This document shows, one piece after another, positions 6,921 through 37,713 of a stretch of DNA of 37,713 bases (the first letter of the stretch is position 1; each line of letters begins with the position of its first letter). The stretch spans positions 1 through 37,713 of IMG/VR virus record IMGVR_UViG_3300047667_000080. One strand, 5' to 3'. The position numbers were made by a program, and so were the translations under genes. Source of the DNA: a virus. The notes beneath the pieces were generated by a model. The model saw only the letters and a program-made list of their open reading frames with translations. It did no database searches and was not told where the DNA came from.

Positions 6921-7166
6921 ATGAGTAAACCAACAAATGACTTAGGAGCGTTTTTACACGCTCAAACTAAGAAAAGTAATGAAGAGTTAGCCGAAAGTAT
7001 TAGAACGTCTAAAAAGCTAAGTAACAAACATAATAACGTAGTAATCTTTCAAGAGAAACGTAGTGTATGTGGGACGGCTACAAAACTATTACAAGCTATC
7101 CATGACTTTGACAGTACAGCAGAATTAATAATCAAAACAAAAAACGGAACATGGAAGCAAAAGTAG
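6921..7166 (+). CDS. Small basic early protein
   Basis: 81 residues, rich in Lys, with SNEELAESIRTSKKLSNKHNNVVIFQEKRS and the ending LIIKTKNGTWKQK. Its last 16 bases overlap the ERF gene start, so it is co-translated with it. It may assist DNA handling, judging only from charge and position. No family recognised. Confidence 0.6.
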   Translation: MSKPTNDLGAFLHAQTKKSNEELAESIRTSKKLSNKHNNVVIFQEKRSVCGTATKLLQAIHDFDSTAELIIKTKNGTWKQK

Positions 7167-7714
7167 AACTTTACAAAGCATTAGCAGCTTTTCAAAATGA
7201 AGTACCAACAATACACAAAGGTACTAAAGGCTATGGTTATTCCTATGCGGATTTACCTACAATATTTAACGTAATCAATCCGCTTTTAAGTAAACATGGT
7301 TTAGGAGTAACTCAATTACTTAATTCAGATGATATAGGTGATTCAATTAAAACTATAGTTTTCCATAGTGAATCAGGACAAACTTTAGAATCTAATACTA
7401 GAATACCTAAAATAACAATGAAGGGAATGAATGACTATCAATCTTTTGGTAGTGGTTGCACTTACTATAGACGTTATGCTATCTCAAATATTTTACGCTT
7501 AGTTACTGATGTTGATGCAGATGCAACAGGTACACAAGTAGCTCCTAAACCAGTTAAAACAGAAGTTAAACAGTTAATGACTGATAGTAAGTTTGAGAAA
7601 GCTAAAGAGTGTAATCTTGATCAGATAAACAAAGTTCTTAGTACATTTAAGTTTATGAAACCTCAGCAAAGAAAAGAATTAGAGGATATTAGAGATAACC
7701 TAAATAAAAAGTAA
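7151..7714 (+). CDS. erf: ERF-family single-strand annealing protein
   Basis: 187 residues, typical for an ERF (essential recombination function) annealing protein, which pairs complementary single strands during phage recombination and genome circularisation. The ERF pattern is plain: LYKALAAFQNEVPTIHKGTKGYGYSYADLPTIFNVINPLLSKHGL, then ESGQTLES, then FGSGCTYYRRYAISNILRLVTD with the invariant Arg-Arg-Tyr. The C-terminus after about 135 is a charged helical tail. It is followed by the DUF3127 SSB-like gene and RusA, forming a complete recombination module. Confidence 0.9.
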   Translation: MEAKVELYKALAAFQNEVPTIHKGTKGYGYSYADLPTIFNVINPLLSKHGLGVTQLLNSDDIGDSIKTIVFHSESGQTLESNTRIPKITMKGMNDYQSFGSGCTYYRRYAISNILRLVTDVDADATGTQVAPKPVKTEVKQLMTDSKFEKAKECNLDQINKVLSTFKFMKPQQRKELEDIRDNLNKK

Positions 7715-8329: not shown

Positions 8330-8761
8330 ATGGATAGTAAAGAGTTAGACATATTAATAGAGGGTATCAGCAAAGTAATTAGCTGGTACTCTTCTAATTC
8401 TCACAAAGATGGTGAGTTGTTGACATCTGCAAAGCAAAAGTTATGCGGTTATTCTTTTACGTTTAGTTCTTTAGTTGGTGATGCTTTAAGTGAATATAAT
8501 AAAGCCTACAATTTTAGAAAGAGAAACTTAGCAGTAAAGAAGCTAGAATATATTAAAGAGGGTGAAACAGCTGGTAAAGCTGAAATGAAATCAGAACTTA
8601 AGAACTATCATTTTAGAGTTGATGAGGGAGAAGCTGAGGCACTTTATAGAAAGGTTAAGAGCCAGTTTGATATAATGAGAGATATTATAAGCTCTATGCA
8701 GCAAGATTTATCTATTTTAAGAAAAGAGAAAGAAGATGCAAAAGTTCATAATAACGGGTAA
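8330..8761 (+). CDS. Hypothetical helical protein between SSB-like and RusA genes
   Basis: 143 residues, mostly helical. Residues 55-85 are basic (YNKAYNFRKRNLAVKKLEYIKEG), and the C-terminal half is coiled-coil-like (YRKVKSQFDIMRDIISSMQQDLSILRKEKED). It overlaps the RusA gene by 26 bases. I have seen similar proteins of this size beside ERF or Rus genes in Bacteroidota phages, but no function is known to me. Confidence 0.65.
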   Translation: MDSKELDILIEGISKVISWYSSNSHKDGELLTSAKQKLCGYSFTFSSLVGDALSEYNKAYNFRKRNLAVKKLEYIKEGETAGKAEMKSELKNYHFRVDEGEAEALYRKVKSQFDIMRDIISSMQQDLSILRKEKEDAKVHNNG

Positions 8762-9092
8762 TACACCATCTAAAAGTAATTGCTATAAAGTTATTAGACT
8801 AGGTAATAGATGTGGATTAGGTAAACAAAAAAAGCTTTATGATTATGAAAAGAGTTTTTTATATCAGATGCTGCAATACGATTACGAAATAATAGAGGGT
8901 AACTTTAAATTCATTATTGATGTGTTTTACGATTCTAGGCGACCTGATTTAGATAATAGTTTAAAAGTGGTGCTGGATTGTTTACAGAAAGCTAAAGCTA
9001 TAAAAAACGATAACAAATGTTTAGAGATTAACGCTTACAAGCATTTAGATAAGTTAAAACCTAGAATAGAGTTTAGTATTGTATCACTATAA
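8736..9092 (+). CDS. rusA: RusA-like Holliday junction resolvase
   Basis: 118 residues. The catalytic cluster RRPDLDNSLKVVLDCLQKAKAIKNDNKC (68-95) carries the RusA Asp71, Asp73-Asn74, Lys77 and Asp81 pattern. RusA proteins are dimeric metal-dependent nucleases that resolve four-way junctions, here ending the erf-SSB recombination module. The start overlaps the previous gene by 26 bases, and the N-terminal FIITGNTPSKSN strand is normal for the family. A palindrome and terminator follow. Confidence 0.88.
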   Translation: MQKFIITGNTPSKSNCYKVIRLGNRCGLGKQKKLYDYEKSFLYQMLQYDYEIIEGNFKFIIDVFYDSRRPDLDNSLKVVLDCLQKAKAIKNDNKCLEINAYKHLDKLKPRIEFSIVSL

Positions 9093-14458: not shown

Positions 14459-14620
14459 ATGAATATAAAACAAGCGATAGGAATATTACAAACTCATAAC
14501 AAATGGAGAAGAGGTTGTGATATAGAACCAATGACTAATCCAACTACTTTAGGAATTGCTATTGATACAGTTATTGAACACGTTAAAAATAATGTTGTTT
14601 CAGATGATGTTATAAAATGA
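14459..14620 (+). CDS. Small conserved phage protein
   Basis: 53 residues, MNIKQAIGILQTHNKWRRG followed by MTNPTTLGIAIDTVIEHVKN. I recognise this pattern from many Gram-negative and Bacteroidota phages, where it is a short hypothetical protein. The same frame continues past the stop for 23 codons (EQCKSQFSKAEFILCVRCS) without a start codon; this may be a decayed extension. Confidence 0.68.
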   Translation: MNIKQAIGILQTHNKWRRGCDIEPMTNPTTLGIAIDTVIEHVKNNVVSDDVIK

Positions 14621-14692: not shown

Positions 14693-14747
14693 GTTTTTTA
14701 TAATGATATAAGTTAAAAGCGTTTTAATGATTTTTAAATTAATGTTA

Positions 14748-14755
14748 TAAATTTA
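14748..14755 (+). promoter_or_regulatory. Leaderless-type promoter before the small membrane protein
   Basis: TAAATTTA, 4 nt (AATT) before the ATG at 14760. A palindrome TTAAAAGCGTTTTAA lies at 14713-14727, near the expected -33 region. Confidence 0.5.
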
Positions 14756-15121: not shown

Positions 15122-15201
15122 TTGTTTTTATTACGTGTTATGTGCTTTTTTAATTGCATCATAATGCTACAACTAAACAATGTTATTAACGAATTAAAGA
15201 G
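15121..15201. other. Leader resembling right-end cassette sequences
   Basis: 15166-15201 matches the minus strand of 36868-36902 over about 36 nt with few differences, both copies ending just before a start codon. 15121-15138 shares a TTGTTT and an ACGTGTTAT block with the minus strand of site B (37193-37221). An imperfect hairpin (ATTGTTT with AAACAAT) spans 15121-15181. Confidence 0.5.
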
Positions 15202-15474
15202 ATGATTATGAAGATTAAAGAAGAAGATAAAGACCTTAATTATTGGAAAAAGAACTGTGAAGAAGATTATTTGCACACTCCAATTAGTGTACTGAGGTAT
15301 ATTACTAAACTTGAAGAAGCCGTTAATGATGTTGCTTTAGATGATGTTATGGATGAGTTACCTATTTTTTTATATAAAGATAAAGACGGTAAACTTTGGA
15401 ATGGTTACCACGGAGATACTGAAGTAACCGAAGAATGGAAAGAGTTTGTTAAAAAAATAGGTTATTCACTATAA
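15202..15474 (+). CDS. Hypothetical acidic protein, possibly cassette-borne
   Basis: 90 residues from ATG 15202 (ATG 15208 is also possible). Acidic, with IKEEDKDLNYWKKNCEEDYLHTPISVLRYITKLEE and a Trp-containing WNGYHGDTEVTEEWKEF end. Function unknown. The gene is flanked by sequence like that of the right-end array: a leader shared with the 36868-36902 region and, after its stop, a long palindrome (15470-15541). I treat a cassette origin as a hypothesis. Confidence 0.6.
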   Translation: MIMKIKEEDKDLNYWKKNCEEDYLHTPISVLRYITKLEEAVNDVALDDVMDELPIFLYKDKDGKLWNGYHGDTEVTEEWKEFVKKIGYSL

Positions 15475-15541
15475 CAACCTTGTAAAGAAAGCTTGAGCGT
15501 CGTTTTCTTTTTAGAAAATGTTCTTTTACAATACTGTTATA
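15470..15541. repeat. Long attC-like palindrome after 15202-15474
   Basis: TATAAC (15470-15475) pairs with GTTATA (15536-15541); TTGTAAAGAA (15480-15489) pairs with TTCTTTTACAA (15521-15531) with one bulged T. The spacers are both 4 nt. An inner hairpin TTTTCT / AGAAAA (15503-15518) sits in the loop. The left arm overlaps the stop codon. It resembles attC layout but its inner arms differ from the right-end sites, so a terminator or other RNA structure is possible. Confidence 0.5.
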
Positions 15542-36459: not shown

Positions 36460-36498
36460 AAACTTTGGCTTATAGTGGATAGTTACGAGAGTAACGAG

Positions 36499-36530
36499 GG
36501 GTATAACTTGATTGTTATACCCTTTTTTTT
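36499..36530 (+). terminator. Strong terminator ending the late region
   Basis: GGGTATAAC (36499-36507) pairs perfectly with GTTATACCC (36514-36522) around 6 nt, followed by eight T. It separates the phage late block from the cassette-like region. Confidence 0.9.
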
Positions 36531-36533
36531 GTT

Positions 36534-36566
36534 GTTAAAAATAAACACATTAAAACGTGTTTTAAC
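36534..36566. other. Possible array entry: GTTAAAA box and hairpin
   Basis: GTTAAAA (36534-36540) is the exact complement of the TTTTAAC box (36560-36566) that opens site C. AAACAC (36543-36548) also pairs with GTGTTT (36557-36562), which with a T-rich run makes a minus-strand terminator candidate. Whether this is an attI-like start of the array or a terminator cannot be told. Confidence 0.4.
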
Positions 36567-36617
36567 ATTCTATAATAACAACCCTAAAAAGGGTAGTTTA
36601 TTATTTCAATGTTATAA
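36560..36617 (+). other. attC-like site C
   Basis: R' TTTTAAC (36560-36566), 6 nt, L' TAATAAC (36573-36579), 16-nt loop holding ACCCT-AAAA-AGGGT, L'' GTTTATTA (36596-36603, one extra T), 7 nt, R'' GTTATAA (36611-36617). The extra T resembles the extrahelical base of integron attC sites. Confidence 0.6.
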
Positions 36618-36618
36618 A

Positions 36619-36864
36619 TCATTTTTTCAAGCTATTAAGGTATTCTTCAAAGTCGTCACGCTTTAATGTTATATATCCTTTTTCTTTGTGCCAGTCATAA
36701 AAACCATTCATAACACCATCTAAAACAACATTATTAACTTGTTTATAGAGGTACTCTTCCATTAATTCAGACGTTGTTTTCCAATACTCAGATAAATCAT
36801 CACTGTTTATAACCCTATTATTAATTCCTAATTGTTTTAAAAACTCTTTTGCGTCCATTTTCAT
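36619..36864 (-). CDS. Cassette gene: small acidic protein
   Basis: 81 residues, MKMDAKEFLKQLGINNRVIN, then a helical acidic middle part and FYDWHKEKGYITLKRDDFEEYLNS. Resembles small phage hypothetical proteins. Its 3' end recurs in the partial copy at the window end. Met3 (MDAKEF) is another possible start. Its upstream leader (minus strand of 36868-36902) matches that of 15202-15474. Confidence 0.6.
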   Translation of the reverse strand: MKMDAKEFLKQLGINNRVINSDDLSEYWKTTSELMEEYLYKQVNNVVLDGVMNGFYDWHKEKGYITLKRDDFEEYLNSLKK

Positions 36865-36916
36865 TTTCCTTTAAATCGTTAATAACATTGTTTAGCTGTA
36901 TCGTTGTAAATAATAA

Positions 36917-37174
36917 TTAGCACCAAATACCGCTTCCGCTATCTAAGTCATGTGTAAACCTTTCTGTCATGTGTCTAGACATTTTAGATACGCTATGCGT
37001 TTTAGTAGATATAACTCCTTCATCTTCCTCTACGTTATCGCATGGCTTTTGTAAGTAATATTTATAACCTCTTTTATTAAACTCATGGTTCAACATTAAG
37101 GCTACTTCCTTTAAATCTTCTTCTGTTTGGTTTTTAAACCACTCCTTAAACTTATTCTTACTATCTTTTTTCAT
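36917..37174 (-). CDS. Cassette gene: small hypothetical protein
   Basis: 85 residues, basic N-terminus MKKDSKNKFKEWFKNQTEEDLKEVALML, then a middle with KRGYKYYLQKPCDNVEEDEG and an ending with HMTERFTHDLDSGSGIWC. Function unknown. The start lies 19 nt from the R' box of site B on the minus strand. Confidence 0.55.
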   Translation of the reverse strand: MKKDSKNKFKEWFKNQTEEDLKEVALMLNHEFNKRGYKYYLQKPCDNVEEDEGVISTKTHSVSKMSRHMTERFTHDLDSGSGIWC

Positions 37175-37192
37175 TTCGTTTGTTTTTAAAAT

Positions 37193-37255
37193 TTATAACA
37201 CGTATATAATAAACAACTACGCTACGCTTCACAGTTATTACTTTCAACGTTAGCA
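37193..37255 (+). other. attC-like site B
   Basis: R' TTATAAC (37193-37199), 7 nt, L' TAATAAAC (37207-37214, extra A), 19-nt loop, L'' GTTATTA (37234-37240), 8 nt, R'' GTTAGCA (37249-37255). R' complements R'' of site C, and R'' complements R' of site A. Confidence 0.6.
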
Positions 37256-37602
37256 TTAATACTACTTTTCTAATTCTTTTAATAAACTATCTGCTAATTC
37301 AACAGCGTATTTTGCGTCAGCTCCTGGTTGTTCATGTTCTGTTCTCCCCGAACAAAGTCCCTGCATTAAGGTAACAGCAAAATACTCTCTCTTTGTAAGT
37401 CCTGAATATTTTTTCTCATGACCAGTTATTGTGTTTCCTTTTTTAGGTTCATAATCATTAATACCCTCTCCTACCTTTGTAAATTCTTGAGGGTTAATTG
37501 GTTGTTTTCCGTTTTCCATTCTATTTAGTTTTTAAGTTTAATAATCCGTACAAATGCTAACAAGTATTAATAACAACCTATCGGCAGTTATTACACTAAC
37601 TG
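37250..37602 (+). mobile_element. Putative gene cassette Y
   Basis: Delimited by R'' GTTAGCA of site B and R' TGCTAAC of site A, exact complements. It holds one minus-strand gene (37262-37519). Cassettes X plus Y make a 991-base unit before the repeat of X starts. Confidence 0.5.
37262..37519 (-). CDS. Cassette gene: conserved phage-type small protein
   Basis: 85 residues. The C-terminal half, LTKREYFAVTLMQGLCSG, followed by KYAVELADSLLKELEK, matches a small protein found in many phages and prophages across bacteria, of unknown function. Minus-strand gene, opposite to the phage genes. The stop is 7 nt from the R'' box of site B. Confidence 0.7.
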   Translation of the reverse strand: MENGKQPINPQEFTKVGEGINDYEPKKGNTITGHEKKYSGLTKREYFAVTLMQGLCSGRTEHEQPGADAKYAVELADSLLKELEK

Positions 37603-37608
37603 TTATAA
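37555..37608 (+). other. attC-like site A
   Basis: R' TGCTAAC (37555-37561), 6 nt, L' TAATAAC (37568-37574), 12-nt loop, L'' GTTATTA (37587-37593), 8 nt, R'' GTTATAA (37602-37608). The two inner arms pair perfectly. The 113-base repeat starts one base before R''. Confidence 0.6.
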
Positions 37609-37713
37609 ATCATTTTTTCAAGCTATTAAGGTATTCTTCAAAGTCGTCACGCTTTAATGTTATATATCCTTTTTCTTTGTGCCAGTCATAAAAACCATTC
37701 ATAACACCATCTA
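37601..37713. repeat. 113-base exact direct repeat of 36610-36722 at the window end
   Basis: Identical to 36610-36722 with a 991-base offset, running to the last base of the window, so the true length may be greater. Upstream of the repeat the two sites differ. Confidence 0.95.
37610..37713 (-). CDS. Partial copy of the 36619-36864 gene
   Basis: C-terminal 33 residues plus stop, identical to the 36619-36864 protein. The gene continues beyond the window end. If the assembly is right, a second complete or altered copy of cassette X lies outside. Confidence 0.7.
   Translation of the reverse strand, partial: DGVMNGFYDWHKEKGYITLKRDDFEEYLNSLKK

Follow-up and report, generated by a model that had tools for sequence, protein, structure and literature searches.

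Integrase-less arrays of attC sites (CALINs) have already been found in phages. Qi et al. 2023 (PMC9892861) described 17 phage CALINs, including that of Polaribacter phage P12002L, which carries methyltransferase cassettes, and P12002L_attC2 recombines with attI1 via IntI1 (PMC9892861). On the bacterial side, earlier integron surveys demanded the IntI-specific domain (PMC2426708, PMC9668308), and almost no integrons were seen in Bacteroidetes in a survey (PMC9024848). In integrons generally, each cassette begins after G|TT and closes with an attC of its own, and the sequence at its beginning is complementary to the R' box of that same attC and not to the neighbouring R'' box. Here we analysed a viral DNA stretch of 37,713 nucleotides (IMG/VR record IMGVR_UViG_3300047667_000080, positions 1 to 37,713), which we call the window. 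The end of this genome is very likely (probability about 0.85) a CALIN whose docking locus is fixed and lies between the structural and portal operons, and whose cassettes turn over by structure-specific recombination in trans.

Compared with the published phage CALINs, of which P12002L is the nearest, the present case has several features in common: integrase-less attC arrays in virulent phages, methyltransferase cassettes, nearly identical attC sites and genes that run opposite to attC. For example, three of 51 positions distinguish the attC of the related phage L010 from P12002L_attC2, and a related methyltransferase cassette, again with this type of attC, is present in L134 (67% over 911 nt). 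By architecture, the window array therefore belongs to a known kind, and its recombination by an integron integrase can be proposed only by analogy to P12002L_attC2. The published CALINs were a few scattered, isolated cases, whereas here a whole, unrelated family of uncultured marine phages has fixed docking loci with turnover and exact natural excision, and the leader site is common to several phage types; the inverted gene polarity and a likely source of the sites are also new. With chromosomal integrons and superintegrons the phage array shares R'-L'-L''-R'' sites, the G|TT crossover, complementarity between each cassette start and its own R' box, and variable cargo, but it has no integrase in cis and its genes are inverted relative to attC.

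Table 1. Elements of the terminal array and of the probable second array, in window coordinates.
Feature	Position	Strand	Details
Terminator-like hairpin with T-run	36497..36532	+	GGGGTATAACTTGATTGTTATACCCTTTTTTT; closes the structural operon, left of the array; kept in relatives with and without the array
Docking (leader) element	36548..36617	+	Small hairpin CATTAAAACGTG and attC site C (R' 36560-36566, R'' from 36611); joining after G36611
Cassette 1	36612..36903	+	81-aa gene on the minus strand, 36619-36864; longest ORF antisense; start GTTATAAAT pairs with R' 36708-36714
attC site D	36708..36909	+	Long internal stretch; arms 36708-36738 (inside the 81-aa gene) and 36873-36909; chain finder
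Cassette 2	36904..37249	+	85-aa gene on the minus strand, 36917-37174; start GTTGTAAAT pairs with site B R' ATTTATAAC
attC site B	37193..37255	+	R1 match
Cassette 3	37250..37602	+	85-aa gene on the minus strand, 37262-37519; start GTTAGCATT pairs with site A R' AATGCTAAC
attC site A	37555..37608	+	R1 match
Cassette 4, cut by contig end	37603..37713	+	Start repeats cassette 1
Probable attC, second array, early region	14696..14752	-	R1 22.8 bits, E 0.011, outside the training set; chain finder
Probable second-array cassette with long attC	15160..15490	-	Arms near 15163-15199 and 15320-15350; gene 15202-15474 on the plus strand

An earlier sequence-only reading had pointed out three attC-like palindromes, C, B and A, whose outer boxes are AAC/GTT and whose inner arms are TAATAA(A)C / GTT(T)ATTA. 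Its coordinates and boxes held for all three (C being 36560-36617), as did the shared layout. As shown by their architecture, C, B and A are genuine attC-type sites with R'-L'-L''-R'' boxes, AAC/GTT cores and paired inner arms. Three checks had been suggested. First, for the covariance-model search we built model R1 from 20 phage attC sites, with the window's C, B and A among the training sites. R1 matched site A with 47.0 bits (E 1.8e-8), site B with 36.3 bits (E 6.6e-6) and site C with 31.3 bits, and the covariation score of the inner stem was 0.337 versus 0.105 in shuffled and at most 0.109 in slid alignments. Second, when the sites were folded alone as single-stranded DNA, C and A were stable (z about -2 to -4) and B was not (z +0.9); the poor folding of B alone is possible because the R' and R'' boxes of an arrayed site come from different cassettes. 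Third, the search for an integrase and for more sites gave no integrase in the phages, and yielded site D and a probable second array. Site D, this second array (about 14.6-15.5 kb, minus strand) and an exact 113-nt repeat had all been overlooked, and three points needed correction: phage CALINs were already published, no integrase was found in the phages, and the cassette genes run opposite to attC.

The sites were also evaluated as a chain. A first chain finder based on loose 8-nt matching was noisy, and its replacement also scores the arms. The chained attC/cassette score of positions 36530-37713 was 14.5, and none of 60 dinucleotide shuffles scored as high (mean 3.1 +/- 2.5, maximum 12.5), although one of the 62 control windows from the same phage also reached 14.5. 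Site D was detected by the chain finder (arms score 12, length 194), and the same arm pair was found in other cassettes. Three R1 sites and site D lie on one strand within 1.05 kb, which satisfies the density criterion for a CALIN (at least two attC sites in 4 kb). A scan with Rfam returned nothing, and INPHARED had nothing for the array by nucleotide search or for the capsid protein by protein search.

The cassettes follow the integron rule, as the sequence shows: each is about 0.25-0.75 kb long, with TT first after G|TT and attC last. In the window, the start/R' pairing is 7/8 for GTTATAAA with TTCATAAC at site D (one mismatch), 8/9 at site B (one G:T) and 9/9 at site A (exact). Many pairs in the relatives match at 10/10, for example GTTAGGTGTA/TACACCTAAC and GTTATGCGTA/TACGCATAAC. 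The count of such pairs is partly circular, since the chain finder itself uses the pairing; the evidence from junctions is independent of it. The 113-nt repeat (37601-37713, identical to 36610-36722) begins at the right-hand GTT of A and of C, which means that the cassettes following these two sites open alike. The contig ends within this repeated cassette, and the remaining array up to the portal gene is missing; the portal gene is entered at the first base of the window.

Evidence also comes from natural variants. When 80 relatives of the neighbouring 191-aa gene were retrieved, most had an empty locus with 260-300 nt between this gene and the portal gene, and about fifteen carried an array there, 0.6-2.6 kb long where complete. 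Ten contigs of the window's clade share docking site C as far as G|TT and then diverge: identity over 40 nt is 80% before this point and 37% beyond it. The contigs L055 and L056, which are 99.3% identical over 4.3 kb on the left and 100% identical over 6.65 kb on the right (the right-flank value being taken from BLAST), differ by a 648-nt deletion that runs exactly from G|TT to G|TT and removes two whole cassettes. A 342-nt cassette ending at GTT is 99.7% identical in L010 and in L089, which is a different phage, and L080 and L081 have a common backbone and diverge at GTT. A crossover at the G|TT of the R'' box fits the L055/L056 and L010/L089 comparisons as well as the docking site; these junctions, and the sharing of cassettes between phages, are shown by the sequences. 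One close relative has lost its array by an imprecise deletion that also took the terminator hairpin (L007:3675-3960), unlike the exact G|TT losses elsewhere.

The leader site was also found in four other phage contexts (L084/L085, L086, L089 and L090), among which L085 encodes a terminase and L089 a head-closure protein. A genome collection covering 84,980 species of bacteria and archaea had no exact match to its pattern, and thus the leader is known only from viral contigs. Relatives with an empty main locus (L034, L045 and L068) have R1 sites at other places in their sequence, and L014 and L081 have further loci.

The window itself likely has a second array, which we list as probable (Table 1). 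Its cassette has a 32-nt match to the site D arm, and its docking boundary lies at about 15476-15486, adjoining AGCTTGAGCG, where six phage sequences diverge. The genes of the second array also run opposite to attC although they lie on the other strand, which suggests that polarity goes with the cassettes rather than with the genome strand. In addition, the peptide NNVVLDDVM recurs in otherwise unlike small phage proteins (window 14588-14616, 15320-15350 and 36707-36740). This recurrence is likely best explained by an attC arm that lies within the genes and is read in frame.

None of the three cassette genes in the window has a known function; that of cassette 3 has a C-terminal match to phrog_2201. 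In the relatives, cassettes encode DNA methyltransferases, identified by PF00145 in L009 and L010 and by phrog_757 and phrog_799 in L014, L090 and L006. Genes of integron cassettes usually point the same way as attC, although this is not a defining feature. Among 31 phage cassettes, including those of P12002L, 29 have their longest ORF antisense to attC, as do all three of the window. In Flavobacteriaceae cassettes the longest ORF has the same direction as attC in 14/15 and the opposite direction in 1/15. The inverted polarity of the phage cassettes is a new regularity which remains unexplained. A contig binned as an Aequorivita MAG has about seven cassettes, including a methyltransferase, with all genes opposite to attC (L114:6501-11095), so this array may be phage-derived. 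P12002L has a further attC-like site near Mom-like and methyltransferase genes (L097:38874-38941) and, in another stretch (L097:40753-41007), shares 77% identity with an L016 cassette.

Three other explanations were considered. First, cassettes might be exchanged by homologous or annealing recombination at repeated attC sites, for example by the phage's own ERF protein, without a site-specific enzyme. The phage does encode an ERF-family annealase and a RusA-like resolvase (window 7151-7714 and 8736-9092), which could aid exchange between repeats, and some attC sites in one array are alike. However, the attC sites that are joined at G|TT otherwise have little in common, and each cassette start stays complementary to its own R' box, and we regard this explanation as unlikely. 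Second, the palindromes might simply be terminators, or hairpins with a regulatory role, that lie between small convergent genes. In favour of this, weak terminator activity has been ascribed to attC sites (PMC9892861); site C, moreover, comes after a real terminator. However, the sites, with a G+C content of 21-30% and poor folding of B, do not meet the criterion of a stable G+C-rich hairpin followed by a T-run. Terminators would also leave the start/R' pairing, the exact excision and the divergence at G|TT unexplained, and they are contradicted by the L055/L056 excision and by the cassette common to L010 and L089, which makes this reading very improbable. Third, a bacterial integron fragment misassembled onto a phage, for which the contig end inside a repeated cassette could speak, is all but ruled out, and refuted for the locus as such, because in relatives single contigs that include both flanks show the array between the 191-aa gene and the portal gene, as in the window's own phage, the arrays of L009, L010, L012, L013, L014, L018, L055 and L056 being bounded on both sides by phage genes.

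Returning to a CALIN recombined in trans, the question is which enzyme could act on it. The Phage_integrase domain PF00589 was not found in 22 phage records, namely the window and 21 related or leader-bearing records, five of which are array- or leader-bearing contigs of 37-41 kb. With no integrase detected in cis, the phage array is a CALIN and not a complete integron. The sequence-only reading had inferred an integron-type cassette array carried by, or joined to, a Bacteroidota phage: the array and "carried" held, and "joined", as a misassembly, failed. The link to Bacteroidota is supported by the P12002L-like cassettes and by arrays with the same type of attC in Flavobacteriaceae; the phage's own host was not identified.

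At E <= 0.01, the phage-trained R1 matches 50 of 249 Flavobacteriaceae genomes, where about 2.5 are expected by chance, often in same-strand clusters. These arrays look ordinary, with a gene and then attC, and one cassette common to two of the genomes ends at ACCG|TT. R1 is geared to a single type of attC, and other types in hosts, for example in the VCR-like array of L213, escape it. This is a clear Flavobacteriaceae array (L213:11800-17800); its VCR-like attC sites measure about 120 nt (GGCTATAA...CATAGCC), and its cassette starts pair exactly with R'.

At the head of one Flavobacteriaceae array is a 391-aa tyrosine recombinase, with a broken copy at the head of another, and relatives of this protein occur in 154 of the 249 genomes. 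Where recombinase and attC lie within 20 kb of each other, attC is downstream on the same strand in 15 of 16 pairs (10 genomes). Contig starts within 5 kb (<=5 kb) of a recombinase were on its 3' side in 41/145 cases versus 5 on the 5' side, and possibly these breaks arose where arrays interrupted the assemblies. Among 20 recombinases not chosen for attC, six have contigs ending <=2.7 kb downstream, and the other 14 have higher array scores downstream than upstream (p 0.011). An attI-like sequence, ATATAACNAG|TT, lies 3' of the recombinase gene in 20/22 cases versus 8.4% of background windows, and unrelated sequence follows it. The succession of a recombinase of about 390 aa, then the conserved attI-like site and then attC arrays, in many cases where a contig breaks off, is seen in L167:6986-8934 and in L201-L220. 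The existence in a bacterial family of a candidate enzyme with an attI-like site and matching attC is thus shown by sequence comparison.

The recombinase is homologous to IntI (TIGR02249, 209 bits; VchIntIA, PDB 2a3v, E 4.4e-35), and like IntI it heads attC arrays and adjoins an attI-like site. It differs in that it scores below the curated cut-off of 265 bits, has no IntI-specific insertion and is encoded by a gene that points into the array. Residues 174-244 of VchIntIA face only 28 residues of the recombinase, and the TIGR02249 match is split; the IntI-specific insertion is therefore missing. Over the catalytic part, its best matches are of the XerA/XerD type (NF040815; PDB 5hxy and 4a8e), from which it differs by an N-terminal extension of about 115 aa, without a significant Pfam match, and by its association with attI and attC arrays. 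TIGR02249 did not work as a marker for integrons in the hosts. Standard IntI at E 1e-45 was found in 0 of 397 genomes; control genomes also gave no match in that search.

In the literature searched, which excluded preprints and contained few subscription papers, we found no description of this Flavobacteriaceae recombinase/attI/attC system. We infer that it is an apparently unrecognised integron class and a likely source of the phage-type attC; that its recombinase moves the phage cassettes is likewise an inference and was not shown. A bolder joint reading is that Flavobacteriaceae have a widespread, unrecognised class of chromosomal integrons with an XerA-like recombinase of about 390 aa, lacking the IntI-specific insertion, and an attI 3' of its gene, and that marine phages of these bacteria are specialised carriers which would use this enzyme in trans at fixed docking sites and keep their own cassette pool with inverted genes. 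The balance of the evidence tips only slightly towards this combination.

In the proposed mechanism, the bottom strands of attC would fold when the phage DNA passes through a single-stranded state in the cell. A host tyrosine recombinase, most likely of a Flavobacteriaceae host during infection, would then cut at the G|TT of the R'' box, and cassettes would leave as circles or enter at the docking site, so that they could be gained, lost and exchanged in trans. The cargo would be small phage-adaptive genes, and the methyltransferases present in relatives would mask phage DNA from restriction. Recombination through single-stranded hairpins, the acting enzyme and the anti-restriction role are all inferred, and no recombination was observed directly. 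The folding of B, the inverted genes, the one control window with an equal score and the circularity of the start/R' count weigh against this explanation.

In conclusion, cassettes that turn over by exact G|TT exchange would make these phages active in cassette traffic and able to collect anti-restriction genes. The host side may matter more, as a recombinase without the IntI-specific domain heads attC arrays in many Flavobacteriaceae. If this enzyme recombines attC, the IntI-specific domain, which has been held essential for integron function, would be dispensable.
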